In this document: one piece after another, positions 567-39,377 of the stretch | Layout: the number at the start of each line of letters is the position of its first letter | Numbering within the stretch: position 1 is the first letter of the stretch | Assembly (NCBI GenBank): GCA_023132875.1 | Contig: JAGLXN010000040.1 | Span: 1-39,847, forward strand | Source of the DNA: Candidatus Parcubacteria bacterium | Lineage (GTDB): Bacteria > Patescibacteriota > Minisyncoccia > JAHIHE01 > JAGLIN01 | Reading direction: 5' to 3' | Length of the DNA: 39,847 nucleotides | The notes under the pieces: generated by a model | Told to the model about the DNA's origin: nothing | Databases searched by the model: none | What the model saw: only the letters and a program-made list of their open reading frames with translations | Translations under genes and position numbers: made by a program

Positions 567-3500
567 ATGCTCAAAAAAAAGGAAATGACAAGTTTAAAAT
601 CAAGCAGGAAATATTTTGACAGAATAAGAGAATTAATAAGTCCGCCTTATTTGATAGAATCTCAAATTAATTCTTATAATTGGTTTATTGAAAGAGGATT
701 GAAAGAGCTTTTAAGCGAGGTTTCTCCCATTGTTAGTTTTAATAAAGAAATGGAGCTTGATTTCATTGATTATTATCTTGACAAGCCGAAATATGACGAA
801 GAAACCTCAAAGAAAAAGAATTTATCCTATGAAGCGCCTCTGCGATGCAAAGTTAGATTAACAGATGTGAAAGCTAAGGCAAAAAAAGAGCAAGAGATTT
901 ATTTTGGAGAGTTCCCCCTCATGACAGATCGTGGAACTTTTATTATTAACGGAGTGGAGAGAGTGGTTGTAGGACAGCTTATTAAATCCCCTGGAGTATT
1001 CTTTAGCGTTTCTTCTGAAAAAGAAGATAAAAAATATTTTGGCGCAAAATTAATTCCAACAAGAGGAGCATGGCTTGAAATAGAAACAGAAGCAAGCGGC
1101 GCTATTTTTGTTAGAATAGACAAGAAAAGGAAAGTAGCTGTTACTTCATTGCTCAGAGCTTTTAAAGAGGGATCTGATGATGGCTTGTTGAAACTATTTT
1201 CTGATGTTGATACTGGAAATGTGAAATTTATAAAAGAAACAATAGGTAAGGATTTAGCAACATCCCAGGCCGAAGGTTTTATTGAGGTATATAAGAGAGT
1301 TAGGCCTGGAGATTTAGCAACCGCTGACAATGCCAAGCAGTTAATTGAAGGAATGTTTTTTAAATTTGACAGATATGATCTTGGCAAGGTTGGAAGGCAT
1401 AAAATAAACCAAAGGCTTAATATTAATTTAGAAGACTCTGTTACTAACAGAATATTCCAGCCTAGTGATTTAGTTTTAACTGTTAAAGAAATAATTAGGC
1501 TTAATAATTCTCTTAATGCTGTTGGAGATGATATTGATCATCTTGGCAATAGAAGAGTAAGAATGATTGGAGAGCTTGTTCAGGAAAGGTTCAGGCTAGG
1601 ATTTATGAGAGTTGAAAGAAACATTAAAGATAGAATGAGCACTCTTGATTCAAATACAGTCACTCCTTCTCAGCTTATAAATACAAGGCCTCTTATCGCG
1701 GTTATAAGAGAATTTTTTATGTCTAGCCAGCTCTGCCAGTTTATGGACCAGGTAAATCCATTGGCCGAACTTGAGCACAAAAGACGCCTTTCCGCTATGG
1801 GTCCGGGAGGACTTACGAGGGAAAGAGCTGGATTTGAAGTTCGCGATGTGCATCGCAGCCATTACGGAAGAATTTGTCCGATTCAAACTCCTGAAGGTCC
1901 GAATATCGGCTTGGTAGGACATCTTGCTCTTTATGGAGAAATTAATGAATATGGATTTTTAGAAACTCCGTACAGAAAAGTTAAAGATAGCAAAGTCACA
2001 GAAAAGGTAGTGTATTTGGATGCTACAGAAGAAGAAAAGTCCAGCATTGCTCATGCTAGCGTTCCTTTTGATAAAAATTCCGGCAAATTCATTCAAAAAG
2101 AAGTTCAAGCAAGAGATAAAGGCAAGCCTGGAATAGTTGAAGCAGAAAAGATAGATTTTATGGATGTATCTCCTAACCAGGCAATTAGCGTTGCAACATC
2201 GCTTATTCCTTTTCTTGAACATGATGACGCGCACAGGGCACTTATGGGTTCAAATATGCAACGCCAGGCTGTTACTTGTATTATTTCTCAGTCTCCTGTA
2301 GTCGGAACGGGCTTTGAAAAAAAAGCTGCGCTTGATTCAGGACATATCATTCTTGCTGAAAAAGACGGAAAAGTTATTGAAGTTGATGGAACTCATATAA
2401 AAATTAAGAATTCAGATTCAGGATGGACATATCATAATCTTTCTAGTTTTGTCAGATCAAACGCTGCCACATGTATGACGCAATATCCGAGAGTGGAGAA
2501 AGGACAGTTAGTCAAAAAAGGAGATCTTATTGCTGACAGCTCTGGAACTGAAGATGGAGAACTTGCTCTTGGCCAGAATTTATTGGTAGCATTTATGCCT
2601 TGGGGAGGCTGTAATTTTGAAGATGCTATAATACTTTCACAAAAAGTTGTTGAAGATGATAGATTTAGTTCAATTCATATTGAAGATTTTTCAATTGATG
2701 TTCGCGATACAAAACTTGGTCCGGAAATTGTAACCAGAGATATTCCTAATGTTGGAGAAGAAAAATTAAAAGATTTAGATGAAGATGGAATTATAAGAAT
2801 CGGAGCGGAAGTTAGATCTGGGGATATTTTGGTCGGAAAAATTACACCGAAAGGGGAAAGCGATTTAACGGCTGAAGAAAGGTTATTGAGATCTATATTT
2901 GGCGAGAAAGCGAGAGACGTGAAAGATACTTCTTTATATCTGCAGCATGGCGAACAGGGAAAAGTGGTTGATGTAAAAATATTTTCAAGAGATCAGGGAG
3001 ACAAGCTTTCTAGCGGTGTCATAAAAAAAATACAAGTAAGCGTGGCGCAGTTAAGGAAGATTCAAGTTGGAGATAAATTAGCGGGCAGGCATGGAAATAA
3101 AGGTGTTATCTCAACAATTCTTCCCGTTGAAGATATGCCTTATTTGAAAGACGGAACCACTATTGATATAATTTTAAATCCTTTAGGCGTGGCTAGCCGT
3201 ATGAATATCGGCCAGATTCTTGAAACTCATCTTGGCTGGGCGGCAAGCAAGCAGGGATATAAAGTTGCTTGTCCTTCTTTGGCTGGCGTTACTGAAAAAC
3301 AGATAAAAGAAGAACTCAGAAAAGTCGGTCTTCCGGAAGACGGAAAAGTTCAGCTTTATGACGGTAAAACCGGCAAATCTTTTGAGAATAAATCTACCGT
3401 AGGAATTACTTATATGTTAAAACTGAATCATCTTGTCGAAGATAAAATACATATGCGTTCTATCGGCCCATATTCTCTTATTACGCAGCAACCGCTTGGA

Positions 3501-20837: not shown

Positions 20838-23300
20838 ATGGAAATAATTAGTCAAAAAGAATTGGAGAGGTTATACAATTTACAGAGAAAGGGAAAGTGG
20901 CAGACTGTCCAAAAAAATCAGATGAGATTAAAAGAAAAATTGTTGCAAGATTTTAAAGATGGCTGGTTTAATTACAAAAAACAGCACCCAAATATTGGGC
21001 CTGTTTTTGATTTGAAAAATAGAAATTCACAGGAATTTATAATTGATGAAAAAGTGGCAAATGAATTTAAGTTAAAAGAACACCTTAATGATTTTTTAAT
21101 AAAATCTCAAAATTCTACTGCTGGAATACGAGCTTTTGTGGATATTTATAATAGCCAAAATCCTCAGAAAATGTATAATGATTTGTTTCTTGCTGTTTTG
21201 GTGCAGGCAGAAGCGGAATTTTTAAAACAGATTCACAAAGAAACTCAAAAAAAATTAGAAAATGTCAATATAGACGAACTTTGCCAATCTCTTAGAAAAA
21301 ATATACCAGAGAAAAATATTGAAATTATTGAGGATATTTATAGATTAAAATTAGAGAATGTAATTGAGCTTATTAGAAAGGTCCCAATAAGGCTTGTTGG
21401 CGGAGAGGTGAGGCCACACACGGGTTCTTTTATAGAAATGGAAACGAGAATTTTAGTGCAAAATGGCATAAAAGTTATTACTCTTGAAAAATATTCCGAC
21501 ACTACCGCAATCTATATATTTTCTTATCTGTGCTTTTTGCTTGGCGCAACTGGAGCGACATATTACACTTCTAGCCATTCTTCAAATTATGTGTGTGGCA
21601 GAAAAGTGCTTGCGTCAGACGGATCTCAAATATTGCCTGATGTGTACGAAAATTACAGAATAATACTTAATAGAATTGTTAACGATGATATTTATAAAAG
21701 CAGAGAAGGATATAAGATTAAAATTTCAAAAAGTAATCATCCAAATATCTTAAATAATTTGTCTTATAAAAAAATAGCTAAATTATATTCTTCAATGTTG
21801 AACACGACCAAGGAAGATGTTGAGATTATAAATAAGGCAGCTTCTCGTGGCCATAAAATTATTATTAACGCTTTGAATGGAAGCTTGGGTAAAACCTTAA
21901 AGCCAATTTTTTCCGAACTGGAAATTAATCAAGGTGTTTTTGAATGGCTGTATGAAGAAGAAGACAGTCTTTTTAATACTGGTTTTATTGTTGTTAAATC
22001 AAAGGACAAAAAAACAGGCAGAAATTTATATGGCGTAGAACATTTAGGAGTAGATACAACGATACCTGATATAGTTAACACAATTTCTTATCCAAAACTA
22101 CTAAAAGGCAAACCGCTTGGAACTAAAATATATGAATGTGATCCAGATTCAGATAGATTTGTAATAAAACAGATTATGAATAAAAAGGACATTAGCTTGC
22201 TTGATAAATATGGCATTCAATATTATGAATTAGACAATGACAAAATACTTGCGGCGCCAAGCCCAAATAAAGTTTTTTTATGCTTGGATATTGTTGACTA
22301 TGAATTGATGAAAAACAGGGGAATCTGGGATAATTATTCTTCTCTTTATTTAATTACCTATGTTTCATGGCGCGCCTGGAGCGAGTTTGCTGATTCTGTC
22401 AAAGGTTTTAAAAAAATGGTTACCCTCGTTGGATTCAAAAACTTAACGGCGCTAAAGAAGAAAGTAGAAAAGTGGTATTTTAACACGGATAAACCGGAAT
22501 TAGTTTTGACAGACTCGCTTGGCAATAAAGTAGAAATAAATAGAACTAAGCGTGTTCGCATACATTGCGCGGAAGAGGAAAGCGGAGGAAGAGTCGCTGG
22601 AATGAATAAGGTGTGTCATAATCTTTTGGGAGAGAAAGTAATGATTATGCCAGAAAAAAGTGCTGCCGATTCATTGATTTCGGAACTTATTTATTCATCA
22701 AAATTACATTTGGAAAATAGTTCGGATTATATTATTACTAATTTTTTGGACAACCGTTTTAAAAAATATAATTTGGTGTCTAAAATAGATTTCAGATTAG
22801 ATATTTTACATGGAATTCCGCAAGGCGTAATTGCGCAAATGGATTATAAAAAACAGCAAGTAGAAATGAAAAAAGCAAGCGCGATTAAAACAAATTTTAA
22901 TAACTTCTTCTTTTCACTGGCAAAGGCGGTTGATAATGAACAAATAGTAAAACAAAAAGTGAAAGAAATACTAACAGAAATTATGCCTACGCATAAAGAC
23001 ACATGGTGCTGTTTGGATAAAATTATATTAACAGAAGAATTATTAGCAAAAGGGAAAAAGAGGCCAGAAGGGGTGATTATGACATTTGAACAAAAAAATG
23101 ATTTTATTCCTATTGTTAGTGAACTTGACTTTAGGCCTTCTGGAACAGACCCTTTAAAAAGCAAAGTCTATGGTGACGCTTTCGCTATATTGCCTGCCCA
23201 ACTTGGTCAAATTAAAAAAGATTTTGAAGAATTGGCTCAACGAGATTTATATGAAATTCTTGAAAAATATAATATAAAATCTGTTATTAAAAAAGAATAG
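20838..23300 (+). CDS. Atypical alpha-D-phosphohexomutase (phosphoglucomutase/phosphomannomutase-like), 820 aa
   Basis: Divergent family motifs in order: STAGIR; VGGEVRPHTGSFIEM; TSSHSSNY (cf. TASHNP); CDPDSDRF (cf. DGDxDR); RPSGTDPLKSKVYGDA (cf. RxSGTEPxxxVY). Confidence 0.7.
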   Translation: MEIISQKELERLYNLQRKGKWQTVQKNQMRLKEKLLQDFKDGWFNYKKQHPNIGPVFDLKNRNSQEFIIDEKVANEFKLKEHLNDFLIKSQNSTAGIRAFVDIYNSQNPQKMYNDLFLAVLVQAEAEFLKQIHKETQKKLENVNIDELCQSLRKNIPEKNIEIIEDIYRLKLENVIELIRKVPIRLVGGEVRPHTGSFIEMETRILVQNGIKVITLEKYSDTTAIYIFSYLCFLLGATGATYYTSSHSSNYVCGRKVLASDGSQILPDVYENYRIILNRIVNDDIYKSREGYKIKISKSNHPNILNNLSYKKIAKLYSSMLNTTKEDVEIINKAASRGHKIIINALNGSLGKTLKPIFSELEINQGVFEWLYEEEDSLFNTGFIVVKSKDKKTGRNLYGVEHLGVDTTIPDIVNTISYPKLLKGKPLGTKIYECDPDSDRFVIKQIMNKKDISLLDKYGIQYYELDNDKILAAPSPNKVFLCLDIVDYELMKNRGIWDNYSSLYLITYVSWRAWSEFADSVKGFKKMVTLVGFKNLTALKKKVEKWYFNTDKPELVLTDSLGNKVEINRTKRVRIHCAEEESGGRVAGMNKVCHNLLGEKVMIMPEKSAADSLISELIYSSKLHLENSSDYIITNFLDNRFKKYNLVSKIDFRLDILHGIPQGVIAQMDYKKQQVEMKKASAIKTNFNNFFFSLAKAVDNEQIVKQKVKEILTEIMPTHKDTWCCLDKIILTEELLAKGKKRPEGVIMTFEQKNDFIPIVSELDFRPSGTDPLKSKVYGDAFAILPAQLGQIKKDFEELAQRDLYEILEKYNIKSVIKKE

Positions 23301-26437: not shown

Positions 26438-27148
26438 TTATTTAATATTATTTATTTCACATAAGTTTTTGCCGATTTTTATCGCTTCAGCCATTTTTAC
26501 AGAGGCCATGTAGTCTGGCATTTCTATTAAATTATTAATAGACATGCCTTCACACCATAAAGTGATATATGGTGTGACAATTACTATTCCAGCTGGTCTG
26601 TTAAACTGGATATCTTTTATATTTTCCCATATTTCCGGCTCCCAGAGAAGCAGAGTTGTTTCTAGAGAGTCTGGTCCATTTCCAAATTCAGTCGAAAGAC
26701 CAATTTTGGATATTAGACCATGAAGTTCTGGCAGTTTCTCTTCTTTATTCCGCAACCTTGTTTCAAGTTCTAATTCCCTGTGTTCAATATTTAATTCTAT
26801 GGCTGCTTCAACGTCGATTGAGCCACATCCCAGTGAGATAAACCCAATTTCATCTTCTTGGTCAACATTGAATTTTCGTACTCCAGCAATTACAATCGCT
26901 TGATCAAACGCTGGCCATCCGCGTTCTTGAAAAATTCTTAAGAGAATAGAATTTTTACCATTTAATACAATCTCATTTTTCTTATCAAATGCCTTTTTGC
27001 ATTTAATGGTTACATCGGAGATTTCCTCAAAGGTCATTCGTCCTATTCGAACTGAACCTCCTCCAGATCTCTTTCCTATCATCTCTGCGAACTTTTCTAT
27101 GTCTGTTATATTAACAGTCAATTTTTCCTCATGTTTATTGTTTGTCAT
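26438..27148 (-). CDS. Hypothetical protein
   Basis: Start chosen at MTNNKHEEK (ATG at 27148) because of upstream CAAGGAGGACAAAAT Shine-Dalgarno; extended -10 TGTTATAAT (reverse complement of 27308-27316). Confidence 0.75.
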   Translation of the reverse strand: MTNNKHEEKLTVNITDIEKFAEMIGKRSGGGSVRIGRMTFEEISDVTIKCKKAFDKKNEIVLNGKNSILLRIFQERGWPAFDQAIVIAGVRKFNVDQEDEIGFISLGCGSIDVEAAIELNIEHRELELETRLRNKEEKLPELHGLISKIGLSTEFGNGPDSLETTLLLWEPEIWENIKDIQFNRPAGIVIVTPYITLWCEGMSINNLIEMPDYMASVKMAEAIKIGKNLCEINNIK

Positions 27149-27403
27149 ATTTTGTCCTCCTTGCAAAACGAGCTCCTTTTTCTCAAAAGGGTTACTAGTG
27201 TTTCACAAGATTTATTTATTGCTCTAATGAGCGATTTCTACTTTCTTAATTAGGAAGTTTCCTTTAAAAAAGCAGATATTTGCTCATTAGAAAAATTATT
27301 AAAGATCATTATAACATACCATAATAAAGCATGACATATATTATTTTTTTGTCAATATGTGATAAATACTAATAAATGATATTTTTCTGTGGATAATTCT
27401 ATT

Positions 27404-27431
27404 TTGCATAATTTTAAAACTATGTTATTAT
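27404..27431 (+). promoter_or_regulatory. Promoter of the RHH-nucleotidyltransferase gene
   Basis: TTGCAT - 16 nt - TATTAT. Confidence 0.5.
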
Positions 27432-27435
27432 ATTT

Positions 27436-27455
27436 GTATGACAAAGTATGACAAA
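27436..27455 (+). promoter_or_regulatory. Tandem 10-bp direct repeat, candidate operator
   Basis: GTATGACAAA GTATGACAAA, two perfect adjacent copies just after the -10 box and upstream of the ATG. Confidence 0.6.
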
Positions 27456-27472
27456 TTTTAATAATATTCAAA

Positions 27473-28273
27473 ATGAGAAATCGTTCAAGAATCACAATTA
27501 CCATAAAAAACGAATTGCTTAAAAATATTGATAGAATTATAGATGGTACTGAAATAAAAAATCGTTCTCACGCGATTGAGTTTTTGTTGGCTAAAAATTT
27601 TGGGGAGCAAAAAATCAAAAAAGCGGTTATTCTTGCTGGGGGAGGAGGAGTAGTGCCAAAAGGAAAAATAAAACCTGTTTCAAGAATTTTGACTGATTGC
27701 AAAGGAAAAATGTTTGTTGAGCATGTTTTTGATTGGCTTAAAAAAGAGGGGATTAAAGAAGTTATAATTTCTGCTGGCGATTTATCATTAGAAGTAAAAG
27801 ACAAAATTGGCGATGGATCTAAATTTGGTTTGCAAGTTTCTTATCTCTCAAAAGATACCGGAACCGCGAGTGTTTTAAAATATCTTGTTAACATTATAGA
27901 CGAGACATTCTTAATGATGAATGGCGATGTTCTATCCGATGTTGATTTGGATGAAATGTTTGATTTTCACAAAAAATCCGGAGGTCTTTGCACAATCGGA
28001 ATGATTTCGGTAAAAGAGCCGTCTTTGTTCGGAACTATAAAACTAAAAGGAAGCCAAATTGTTGATTTTATCGAAAAGCCGAAAGAGGGCAAGGAAGAAT
28101 CTTATTTAATAAATGCCGGGATTTATTTGGTTGAGCCGGAGATTTATAAGTCAGCTTCTTATAAGTGCTTGAGCTTGGAAAAAAATCTTTTCCCAGCTTT
28201 GGCAAAGAAAGGAAATCTTTTCGGATATTATTTGCAGGGAAAATGGTTCCATTTGGATAAAATTGGCAAGTAG
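27473..28273 (+). CDS. Ribbon-helix-helix domain fused to sugar-phosphate nucleotidyltransferase-like domain
   Basis: N-terminal MRNRSRITITIKNELLKNIDRIIDGTEIKNRSHAIEFLLAKNF is RHH/CopG-like; then KKAVILAGGGGVV...MMNGDVLSDVDL...FIEKPKEG...NAGIYLVEPEI is NTP_transferase-like. Confidence 0.85.
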   Translation: MRNRSRITITIKNELLKNIDRIIDGTEIKNRSHAIEFLLAKNFGEQKIKKAVILAGGGGVVPKGKIKPVSRILTDCKGKMFVEHVFDWLKKEGIKEVIISAGDLSLEVKDKIGDGSKFGLQVSYLSKDTGTASVLKYLVNIIDETFLMMNGDVLSDVDLDEMFDFHKKSGGLCTIGMISVKEPSLFGTIKLKGSQIVDFIEKPKEGKEESYLINAGIYLVEPEIYKSASYKCLSLEKNLFPALAKKGNLFGYYLQGKWFHLDKIGK

Positions 28274-28491: not shown

Positions 28492-29565
28492 ATGAAATTT
28501 TTAATAATGGCTGGCGGTAAAGGCACGAGGCTTTGGCCAGTTTCCAGAAAAAACAAGCCGAAACAATTTCAAAAATTGATTAGTGACCAAACGATGCTGC
28601 AAGAAACTGTCAGTCGTCTTTTGTCTTTTGCTTCGTTTAAAGATATTTATGTCGCTACCAATAGATCTTATGCAGGAGAAGTTAAAGAAGAATTGCCTAA
28701 GTTGTCGGCAAGCAATGTCATAGGCGAGCCTGCTTTCAGAGAAAGGGCATCTTGTATTGCGCTTGCTTCAGCTATTTTTTCCAAAGAAGGAGAAGACGAA
28801 ATAATGGCTATTTTTCCTTCAGATCATTATATTAAAAAAGAAAAGGAGCTAATTCAAGTTCTGAAAGAAGCGGAGAAATTTTTAAATGACAATCCTGATC
28901 ATCTAATCGCTGTGGGAGTTAAGCCAACCGGACCAGAAACCGGCTATGGATATATAAACTATAATACAAAAAACATAGCTGGAAAAAATAACAAGAAATT
29001 TTATAAAGTTGAAAAATTTATTGAAAAACCGGATTTAAAAACAGCCAAAAAATATTATCAGGAAAATAATTTTTTATGGAATACCAGTATTTATTTATGG
29101 AAAACTTCGGCAATTATTGATAGATTTAAAAGGTTCATTCCCGATTCATATGAAAGATTATGCAGGATTAAAAAAGCGGTTGGCACTTCTGAATTTAAGG
29201 AAGTGTTAGAAAAAGAATATCCGTTAATGGATATGATCTCAGTGGAATATGGTATATTGGAAAATGACGATAAAACCGTTGTTGTTTCCGCGGACTTGGG
29301 ATGGAGTGATGTCGGAAGCTGGTCAGTGCTTAAAGATTCCTTAATTGATCAGGATAGTCATTTTGTAAAGGGGGAACATTTGGATGTCGGTTCAAAAAAC
29401 CTGCTTGTTTATGGTTCAAAAAAGTTGATTACGACTGTCGGCTTGAAGAATCTGATCATTGTTGATACTGATGACGCCATATTGATATGCGATAAAAATA
29501 ATTCTCAGCTTGTCAAAACTGTCGTAGAAAAACTGGAAAAAGACGGGAAAATAAAATTATTATAA
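28492..29565 (+). CDS. manC: Mannose-1-phosphate guanylyltransferase
   Basis: MKFLIMAGGKGTRLWPVSRKNKPKQFQKL, IFPSDHYI, GYGYI, FIEKPD, WNTSIYLWK, DLGWSDVGSW. Confidence 0.93.
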   Translation: MKFLIMAGGKGTRLWPVSRKNKPKQFQKLISDQTMLQETVSRLLSFASFKDIYVATNRSYAGEVKEELPKLSASNVIGEPAFRERASCIALASAIFSKEGEDEIMAIFPSDHYIKKEKELIQVLKEAEKFLNDNPDHLIAVGVKPTGPETGYGYINYNTKNIAGKNNKKFYKVEKFIEKPDLKTAKKYYQENNFLWNTSIYLWKTSAIIDRFKRFIPDSYERLCRIKKAVGTSEFKEVLEKEYPLMDMISVEYGILENDDKTVVVSADLGWSDVGSWSVLKDSLIDQDSHFVKGEHLDVGSKNLLVYGSKKLITTVGLKNLIIVDTDDAILICDKNNSQLVKTVVEKLEKDGKIKLL

Positions 29566-29587: not shown

Positions 29588-30487
29588 ATGAAAATATTAG
29601 TTACCGGCGGAGCTGGTTTTATTGGTTCTAATTTGGTTCACGATTTAGTTGAAGAAGGTTATGAAATAATTGTTATTGATAATCTTTCTACTGGAAGCAT
29701 AGAGAATATTTCTGATGTAATGGATAAAATAAAATTTATAAAAGCTCCTTGCGCTGAAGTGTCAAATTTTAAGGAGTTAAAGGGCATAGATGGCATATAT
29801 CATTACGGGATTCCTTCTACAACGCAGTTATATCGGGACGATAGATCTCTTGTTGGGCATGCGGTTAATGAATTTATAGAAATTCTTGAACTTGCCAAAA
29901 GAGAAAATTGTAAAGTTATTTACGCGTCTTCCTCGTCAGTATATAATGGCAATGTTCCTCCGTTTCATGAAGAAATGACGGTTCATATAAAAGATTTTTA
30001 CACAGAAGCTCGTTATTTAATGGAAAGAGTAGCGAAGCTTTATAATGATTTTTATGGAGTCAGGTCTGTTGGATTCAGATTTTTTAGCGTATATGGTCCT
30101 CGCGAAGAAGCGAAGAAAGACTTTGCCAATCTTGTTTCGCAATTTTTATGGGACATGAAAGAAGGAAAAGCACCGCTGATTTATGGAGATGGAACACAGA
30201 CCAGAGATTTTACTTATGTAGACGATATTAATCGCGGTTTCAGGCTTGGAATGGAGGGTGATATAGACGGTGATGTCTTTAATCTTGGAACCGGCAGATG
30301 TTATAGCTTAAATGAATTAGTTGATATGCTCAATGAAATTCTCAATATTGACATTCAGCCGGTTTATAAAGAAAATCCGATTCAAAATTATGTTCAGGAA
30401 ACATTGGCTGATGCTTCCAAAGCCAAAGAGCATTTTGGTTTTGAGCCAAGAGTTCATTTAAAAGAGGGAATTGGAAAAATTATTTAA
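29588..30487 (+). CDS. NAD-dependent epimerase/dehydratase (UDP-glucose 4-epimerase-like)
   Basis: MKILVTGGAGFIGSNLVHDLVEEGYEIIVIDNLSTG; ASSSSVYN; GDGTQTRDFTYVDDINRGF; YMERVAK variant of YxxxK. Confidence 0.93.
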   Translation: MKILVTGGAGFIGSNLVHDLVEEGYEIIVIDNLSTGSIENISDVMDKIKFIKAPCAEVSNFKELKGIDGIYHYGIPSTTQLYRDDRSLVGHAVNEFIEILELAKRENCKVIYASSSSVYNGNVPPFHEEMTVHIKDFYTEARYLMERVAKLYNDFYGVRSVGFRFFSVYGPREEAKKDFANLVSQFLWDMKEGKAPLIYGDGTQTRDFTYVDDINRGFRLGMEGDIDGDVFNLGTGRCYSLNELVDMLNEILNIDIQPVYKENPIQNYVQETLADASKAKEHFGFEPRVHLKEGIGKII

Positions 30488-37664: not shown

Positions 37665-39377
37665 TTACTTCCAAACCCTCTTTGTCTTCATGTACCATTT
37701 CTCAATCTCATTAAATCTATTAGAAGGTATGACTATATTGTTAAGCTCAACTCCATGCACTGAATTGCTGTGGAGATATAAATAGTTTGGGCTGTAAAGG
37801 AAAATGGCTGGAATATCCTCAACGACAAGTTTTTGAAATTCCTTATATTTTTCAGCTCTTATATTTTGATCTATTTCTTGTCTGGTTTCTTCTAAAAGTT
37901 TGTCAACTTCCGAATTATCGTATAAAGATAAATTCAAGCCGGATTCCTTTTTTTGCGAAGAGTGCCAGAAAGCAAACGGGTCAGGATCATAGTTAAGAAT
38001 TTGCGCGAATAAAATGGCTTCATATTCACGAGGTTTTATATAGTCATTTCGAAGTTCGTTTGTCTGAACGGTTTTTATTTCAATATTAACTCCTATTTCT
38101 TTCCACATCTGCTGGATTATTTTTGCAGTTTCAGAAAGTTCAGTCTGATCGTGTGTGATTAAAGTAAATTCTATTTTAATATCTTCTTTTTCTCTAATTC
38201 CATCGCCATCAGAATCAATCCATCCTGTCGCGTCAAGAGTATTTTTAGCATGTTCTTGGGCATAATCATAAACTTTTGTATCTGAATTATATCCTAACAA
38301 CTGCGGCGGTATTGGAGATTCTGAAGGGCTTCCTTCTCCTATCAGAATTTTTTCTATTAGTTTGTTCTTATCTATCGCGTGCGCAAGAGCTAATCGCACT
38401 TTTTTGTCTGAAAGCGCTTTATTTTTTGTTTGATTAAAAAATACCGCAAAATACCGCGGGATTTTGAGCCTGTATAAATTTGAATTTTCAAAATCCGCGA
38501 CCTTCTCTTTGTTTTTTGGAGAAAGATAATTTATTCCTTTAATCTCTTTTCGATTAAATGCTGATATTGCGTCTTCCTCTTTTTGAAAAAACTTAAATAC
38601 TAATTTTTCTATGTATGGTTTTTGAGCATAATACTCATCATTTCTGATAAATTCAATAGAGCTTATCTTTCCCTCCCTGTCTTTCGCAAACTGGCTGAAT
38701 TTGTACGGACCAGTTCCTATCGGCCTTAAATTATATTCGGCTAAAGGAAAATTATTTATTTCTTTAGGTTCCCATAAATGTTTTGGCAATATTCCAAAAC
38801 TAAGATTATTTAAGAAAGGAGAGTATGCGTTTTTTAAAATAAATTTTATTGTGTAATCGTCTATTTTTTCTGTTCTTATTCCTATCCAGTTTGATCTCAA
38901 AATACTGTTATAATCAGGATTTTGTATAGTTTGAATTGTATATATAATATCGTCTACAGTGAGCTTTTCTCCGCTATGCCATTTCACGTTTCTTTTTATG
39001 TAAAAAGTATAGCTTAATTTATCTTCTCCTATTTTATAATCTTCCGCAAGATCATTAACTAAATTTCCTTCCGTATTAAGTTTTAGAAGGCTGGAATATA
39101 TAATAGACGAAAGATCTGAGTCAATATCATTTGATTGAGATAGTATCGGGTTTATAAATCTTGGCTGTCCTATCATACCCTCTGCGTATTCTCCGCAAAA
39201 ATCCGGGACTTTTTGAGTGTTTTTTGTATAATAAGAAAAGCCCAAATAAACGCCGCTAACGACAATTAATAACAGTAAAAACTGAACAAACCTTCGCTCT
39301 TTTTTGCTTAAGACATAAAAAACTCTATTTAGTTTTCCTAAAAAACCTTTTATATTTTTTATAAGTTTTATTAATAT
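37665..39377 (-). CDS. Peptide/oligopeptide ABC transporter substrate-binding protein (SBP family 5), membrane anchored
   Basis: 526-aa tracked ORF with LTVDDIIYTIQ, RPIGTGPYKF, NQTKNKALSDKKVRLALAHAIDK; open frame continues upstream of the tracked TTG (39245) to encode ...LSKKERRFVQFLLLLIVVSGVYLGFSYY. Exact start unknown. Confidence 0.88.
   Translation of the reverse strand: MLIKLIKNIKGFLGKLNRVFYVLSKKERRFVQFLLLLIVVSGVYLGFSYYTKNTQKVPDFCGEYAEGMIGQPRFINPILSQSNDIDSDLSSIIYSSLLKLNTEGNLVNDLAEDYKIGEDKLSYTFYIKRNVKWHSGEKLTVDDIIYTIQTIQNPDYNSILRSNWIGIRTEKIDDYTIKFILKNAYSPFLNNLSFGILPKHLWEPKEINNFPLAEYNLRPIGTGPYKFSQFAKDREGKISSIEFIRNDEYYAQKPYIEKLVFKFFQKEEDAISAFNRKEIKGINYLSPKNKEKVADFENSNLYRLKIPRYFAVFFNQTKNKALSDKKVRLALAHAIDKNKLIEKILIGEGSPSESPIPPQLLGYNSDTKVYDYAQEHAKNTLDATGWIDSDGDGIREKEDIKIEFTLITHDQTELSETAKIIQQMWKEIGVNIEIKTVQTNELRNDYIKPREYEAILFAQILNYDPDPFAFWHSSQKKESGLNLSLYDNSEVDKLLEETRQEIDQNIRAEKYKEFQKLVVEDIPAIFLYSPNYLYLHSNSVHGVELNNIVIPSNRFNEIEKWYMKTKRVWK

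Follow-up and report, generated by a model that had tools for sequence, protein, structure and literature searches.

The perfect tandem decamer upstream of the RHH-nucleotidyltransferase (RHH-NTase) gene in the window, the whole stretch of 39,847 nucleotides analyzed here, is very probably an autoregulatory operator of that gene, although this assignment rests on sequence comparison and no binding or expression data stand behind it. Such an operator had been predicted in the first-pass annotation. The prediction is now supported by the conservation of the site throughout the protein family, by its absence at NTases lacking the RHH domain, and by its near-absence elsewhere, with binding itself being inferred. 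The site, its conservation, phasing, and family specificity, the domain make-up of the protein, and the erosion of its motifs were all computed.

The tandem decamer and its promoter

The features of the locus are listed in Table 1.

Table 1. Features of the RHH-NTase locus in the window.
Feature	Position	Strand	Basis or remark
−35 box TTGCAT	27404..27409	+	Sequence; TTGCAT at the same offset in loci L069, L070, L073, and L077
−10 box TATTAT	27426..27431	+	Sequence and promoter scan; offset to operator kept in close orthologues
Putative tandem operator, GTATGACAAA x2 (consensus GTATGAYAANGTATGAYAA)	27436..27455	+	Overlaps presumed transcription start
NikR-like RHH DNA-binding domain, residues 1–48	27473..27616	+	Strand R6-x-T8-x-T10; helices 13–22 and 31–43
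NTase-fold domain, catalytic motifs eroded	27617..28273	+	PF00483, E 8.4e-23; motif table
ManC-type mannose-1-phosphate guanylyltransferase	28492..29565	+	Likely same operon; RHH-NTase neighbor in 21 loci
NAD-dependent sugar epimerase/dehydratase	29588..30487	+	PF01370, E 3.4e-40; likely same operon; neighbor in 11 loci

The two copies of GTATGACAAA are exact and lie head to tail (27436–27445 and 27446–27455), as originally described, and the −35 and −10 boxes assigned at the outset were recovered with the same 16-bp spacer. The distances required slight correction: the pair begins 4 bp past the −10 box (about 5 had been given) and ends 17 bp, not 18, ahead of the ATG at 27473. The two strings proposed as weaker sites do exist, with ATGACA at 27331 instead of 27322 and GTCAAT at 27351, but their reading as operators was unsupported and was rejected, as they were no better than background.

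The probability of a perfect 10-mer tandem within the 325-bp intergenic region is ~0.0014 by dinucleotide shuffling, and two perfect decamer tandems were seen in the whole window against 0.2 expected. Taken alone, these statistics are suggestive only, being notable but not decisive. The second tandem, AAAATACCGC x2, lies at 38438–38457. In the 1.13-Mb genome, the GTATGACAAA word pair is present only once, and other matches, at two to three mismatches, were about as frequent as in the reversed-pattern control.

Conservation and specificity of the site

To the window gene, the family set added 78 RHH-NTase genes, which came from Patescibacteria, DPANN archaea, and a single Aminicenantes bin. The genome scan returned 79 loci, full-length or nearly so, and together with the window these gave 79 non-redundant upstream regions. 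The sequences derive from metagenome bins, and some taxon labels (e.g., Aminicenantes) are possibly mis-binned. The scan was seeded with the peptide NRSHAI, the conservation of which among RHH-NTases is therefore partly ascertainment; neither the R-x-T-x-T strand nor the DNA site was seeded.

Non-conservation upstream of orthologues had been named in the first-pass annotation as grounds for refutation, and this test was passed: the element and its 10-bp period are kept upstream of the close orthologues and in about half of the family. Close orthologues of the same family (66–89% identity) retain TTGCAT, the −10 region, and GTATGAYAAAGTATGACA or GTATGAYAAGTTATGACR between diverged flanks, and in L073 and L077 four to five decamers are arranged in register. 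In L069 (on a contig shared with L034), intervening DNA displaces promoter and operator to −232; around 1450–1690 of this locus, the operator is separated from the ATG by ~190 bp of hairpin-rich DNA that contains a second TTGCAT and resembles a small insertion. In L072, an extra gene precedes the RHH-NTase gene in the operon, and the site lies 905 bp upstream, ahead of the gene that opens the operon. A second operator site in L073 faces the divergent gene, where L077 has a similar tandem. The divergent gene of the window (26438–27147, minus strand) had no significant Pfam or NCBIfam match.

Pairs of GTATGA (at most one mismatch) on the same strand and exactly 10 bp apart occur in 37 of the 79 upstream regions, compared with 0.21 expected, with secondary peaks of 10 at 20 bp and 5 at 30 bp. 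The shorter word TATGA gave same-strand pairs at exactly 10 bp in 32/79 regions (control mean, 0.1). Inverted GTATGA pairs at 11 bp numbered seven, and none of the 79 regions had a pair with the 22-bp spacing of NikR sites. A site score of at least 10/12 was reached by 45/79 regions (57%) and 1.9% of control windows, and a score of at least 11 by 49% and 0.3%, respectively. The control windows were taken from the same loci with coding DNA included and are slightly less AT-rich than promoters; the stronger internal control is the sharp 10-bp peak relative to every other spacing within these upstream regions. The site was also perfect (12/12) in three of seven further RHH-NTases found independently by HMM, whereas homologous NTases without the RHH domain scored at least 10 at chance level (2/31). 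Site-bearing members are found among archaea (21/30) and bacteria (24/49), and the site occurs on both sides of a tree in which nearly all archaeal and bacterial RHH-NTases are separated. A site of at least 10/12 was missing from 34 of the 79 genes, among them the entire Microgenomates clade (14 rows), in which the RHH strand is unchanged despite the missing site. At the Roizmanbacteria-type loci L136, L140, L141, and L145–L147, no GTATGA array was seen; the promoter DNA of several has TTGACAAAAA or TTGACAAAANTCAA-like sequence in common, which may be an operator of another kind or a shared promoter.

The strict site GTATGAYANNGTATGAYA occurs only seven times in 384 genomes of the class, and five of the seven are at RHH-NTase genes. 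The sixth overlaps a small RHH antitoxin-like gene at its promoter and start, with a PIN-like toxin gene next to it (L176, G033:C53, around 1501–1518, minus strand), so that other RHH proteins may read the same operator word, and the seventh lies ahead of a ribonucleotide-reductase-like gene; these antitoxin/toxin and reductase identities were read from the sequence without a family search. Five genomes of the family or order without an intact RHH-NTase had no strict site. With one mismatch allowed, 14 of the 15 RHH-NTase genomes searched had a match, nearly always at the RHH-NTase gene. Since strict sites number one or two per genome and the additional one-mismatch sites in the 15 genomes (five, vs seven in the reversed control) do not exceed the control, a wide regulon was rejected. 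Among the additional sites, single operator-like ones near position 1504 of L161, L173, and L174 precede genes for archaeal GAPDH, a PfkB sugar kinase, and alpha-amylase; a small sugar regulon is no more than suggested by them, their count not being above the control.

The position of the array relative to the promoter differs between the two domains. Bacterial arrays begin just past the −10 box (4 bp in the window, 5 in L081, and 7 in L090 and L105), and in L049 and L054 the second word coincides with the −10 box (TTGACA-N16/17-TATGAT); this placement implies repression. At archaeal-type promoters the array is mostly on the opposite strand, and in 11 of 18 minus-strand sites it ends 11 bp (10 bp in one case) upstream of a TTTAAATA/TTTATATA TATA box. 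Archaeal activators can bind next to the BRE, upstream of the TATA box, and an array in this position could either support activation or get in the way of TBP/TFB.

The RHH-NTase protein and its gene neighborhood

The product of the window gene (266 amino acids) combines an N-terminal NikR-like RHH with a sugar-1-phosphate NTase domain. Pfam RHH_1 remained sub-threshold on this single protein (14.6 bits; gathering score, 20.5), and NCBIfam NikR models matched its RHH (residues ~5–48) with E values of 3.3e-6 to 3.6e-5, covering only residues from about 3 to 50 and falling far below their cutoff. A profile of the RHH region built from 32 relatives matched E. coli NikR (1q5v) at E 3.7e-7, followed by CopG at E 0.018. 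Together with the two helices in the AF2 model (pLDDT 90.9), the profile match identifies the N-terminal strand and helices, with their hydrophobic pattern, as an RHH domain. The strand of an RHH takes shape only upon dimerization, which the AF2 model does not cover. For the NTase domain, the closest PDB sequence matches are GDP-mannose pyrophosphorylases, which were also the best Foldseek matches of the AF2 model (E 5e-20). One of the top structural matches is the GMPPA/GMPPB complex. The PF00483 and Foldseek matches establish the NTP_transferase fold.

The catalytic signature (GxGTR...PK and the metal-binding Asp of WxD) is absent from the window protein, which has LAGGGGVVPKGK...KPVSRIL and WFHLD, with WFH in place of WFD. 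GxGTR, PK, and WxD are lost together in its clade, where NGD and EKP are kept. Among the 80 members, PK is retained in 59, GD in 76, and WxD in 56. GxGTR is found in 22/31 archaeal and 2/49 bacterial members, and all four motifs are intact in 15 of the 31 archaeal ones. The most eroded catalytic domains seen are those of L099, L106, and L124, in which the first metal-binding Asp is gone as well (NGD to NGH). The conservation of the RHH and the DNA site while the NTase motifs erode suggests that DNA binding has been retained and catalysis is dispensable. Judged from these motifs, the RHH-NTases appear to be a trigger-enzyme family turned into putative sugar-nucleotide sensors.

In the window, the gene order is RHH-NTase, ManC, epimerase, and GtrA. 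Across the family, RHH-NTase genes also neighbor PMM/PGM (17 loci) and GlpX FBPase (5 loci), and the neighbors suggest that the process under regulation is GDP-mannose and sugar-phosphate metabolism. An 820-residue protein encoded at 20838–23300 of the window has only weak phosphomannomutase domain matches (PGM_PMM_I, E 9.7e-6), and a similar 820-residue ORF lies directly upstream of the RHH-NTase gene in L070. A toxin-antitoxin interpretation of the RHH-NTase was rejected because its NTase belongs to PF00483, not to the minimal-nucleotidyltransferase toxins, and its neighbors are sugar genes.

Proposed mechanism and relation to known regulators

Here, we propose a mechanism in which binding, stoichiometry, cooperativity, the sign of regulation, and the ligand are inferred only. 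RHH dimers would insert their R-x-T-x-T beta-ribbon into the major groove at each GTATGAYA, with two (up to four or five) dimers placed 10 bp apart on one face of the DNA and binding together. Occupying roughly −3 to +17, the bound complex in the window would obstruct RNA polymerase, resulting in negative feedback on the RHH-NTase itself and probably also on the ManC and epimerase genes that follow. The input is likely received by the NTase-fold domain, which in the window clade has lost catalytic residues and kept part of the sugar-nucleotide pocket; binding of a sugar nucleotide or sugar phosphate may alter the affinity for DNA. Our best guess for the ligand, based on the fold and the gene neighbors, is GDP-mannose or mannose-1-phosphate.

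Among the alternatives, a functionless repeat, born by chance or slippage, is hardly tenable: a second perfect tandem decamer at 38438 and the AT-rich window would favor it, but the word, its period, and its promoter position are kept across loci with 33–89% protein identity, and chance is refuted statistically. The element could also be a true RHH operator bound by another RHH regulator, such as an antitoxin or a NikR-like protein. The strict site at the RHH antitoxin-like promoter does indicate that the word is not exclusive to RHH-NTases; nevertheless, this possibility earns little credence, given that RHH-NTase genes account for five of the seven strict sites, that none was found in the five genomes without an intact one, and that the linked protein best explains the co-occurrence across two domains of life.

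With respect to the sign of regulation, it is improbable, though conceivable above all in archaea, that the element is an activator site from which the RHH-NTase stimulates its own transcription. The archaeal-type arrays 11 bp upstream of the TATA box, beside the BRE, would suit an activator, but the arrays of the window and other bacteria lie 3–7 bp past the −10 box or on it, where a bound protein blocks the polymerase. Somewhat less remote, but still unlikely, is that the window protein is a working NTase moonlighting as a repressor, a PutA-like trigger enzyme and not a dead sensor. The archaeal members with all four motifs and the retained NGD and EKP of the window protein speak for catalysis, against which stand the joint loss, in the window clade, of the signature Arg, the PK Lys, and the second-metal Asp, and the persistence of GxGTR in just two bacterial members. 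An autoregulatory operator read by the linked RHH-NTase remains the preferred interpretation.

More broadly, the RHH-NTases may constitute a hitherto undescribed class of one-component regulators in CPR bacteria and DPANN archaea, in which a NikR-like RHH reading tandem GTATGAYAAN decamers would be joined to a sugar-NTase, ranging from an intact trigger enzyme to a dead sugar-nucleotide sensor. Such proteins would exert feedback on the operon that encodes them as well as on GDP-mannose and central sugar metabolism, and the promoter geometry would be opposite in bacteria and archaea. We regard the chances of this wider hypothesis as evenly balanced. No description of an RHH-nucleotidyltransferase regulator was found in the open-access literature searched, which does not prove its absence. 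Few Patescibacteria and DPANN archaea can be cultivated, so that little is known of how their genes are regulated; in this case, the regulator family and its DNA site are both legible from sequence in the two groups. The module that reads DNA appears to have the same recognition word in bacteria and archaea, even as the enzyme joined to it declines from a catalyst to a probable sensor, and the half-site of E. coli NikR appears to be reused in a new arrangement.

The half-site of E. coli NikR is GTATGA (PMC7055735, PMC4486848). NikR is the nearest RHH by profile, and it shares the R-x-T-I-T recognition strand and the identical 6-bp half-site with the RHH-NTases. However, its nickel-binding C-terminal domain is replaced by the NTP_transferase fold, and its operator GTATGA-N16-TCATAC differs from direct repeats at 10 bp; with the metal domain absent and the site geometry wrong, a true NikR was rejected. 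A regulatory use of an NTase fold related to GDP-mannose pyrophosphorylase is also made by the animal regulatory subunit GMPPA. GMPPA regulates GMPPB via protein contact, whereas in the RHH-NTase the sensor-like domain and a DNA-binding domain form one protein. CopG, MetJ, and other tandem-site RHH repressors bind as dimers to adjacent sites at their own promoters; the RHH-NTase differs from them in its word, its 10-bp direct repeats, and its fused NTase domain. Trifunctional PutA, in which an N-terminal RHH is fused to an enzyme, is an autogenous repressor (PMC5293562). The RHH-NTase resembles PutA in joining an RHH to an enzyme domain and in having a conserved site at its own promoter, but the analogy is only functional: the enzyme is unrelated, with NTP_transferase alone following the RHH and the proline dehydrogenase and P5C dehydrogenase domains absent; its catalytic motifs are often eroded, and the family is one of CPR and DPANN organisms.
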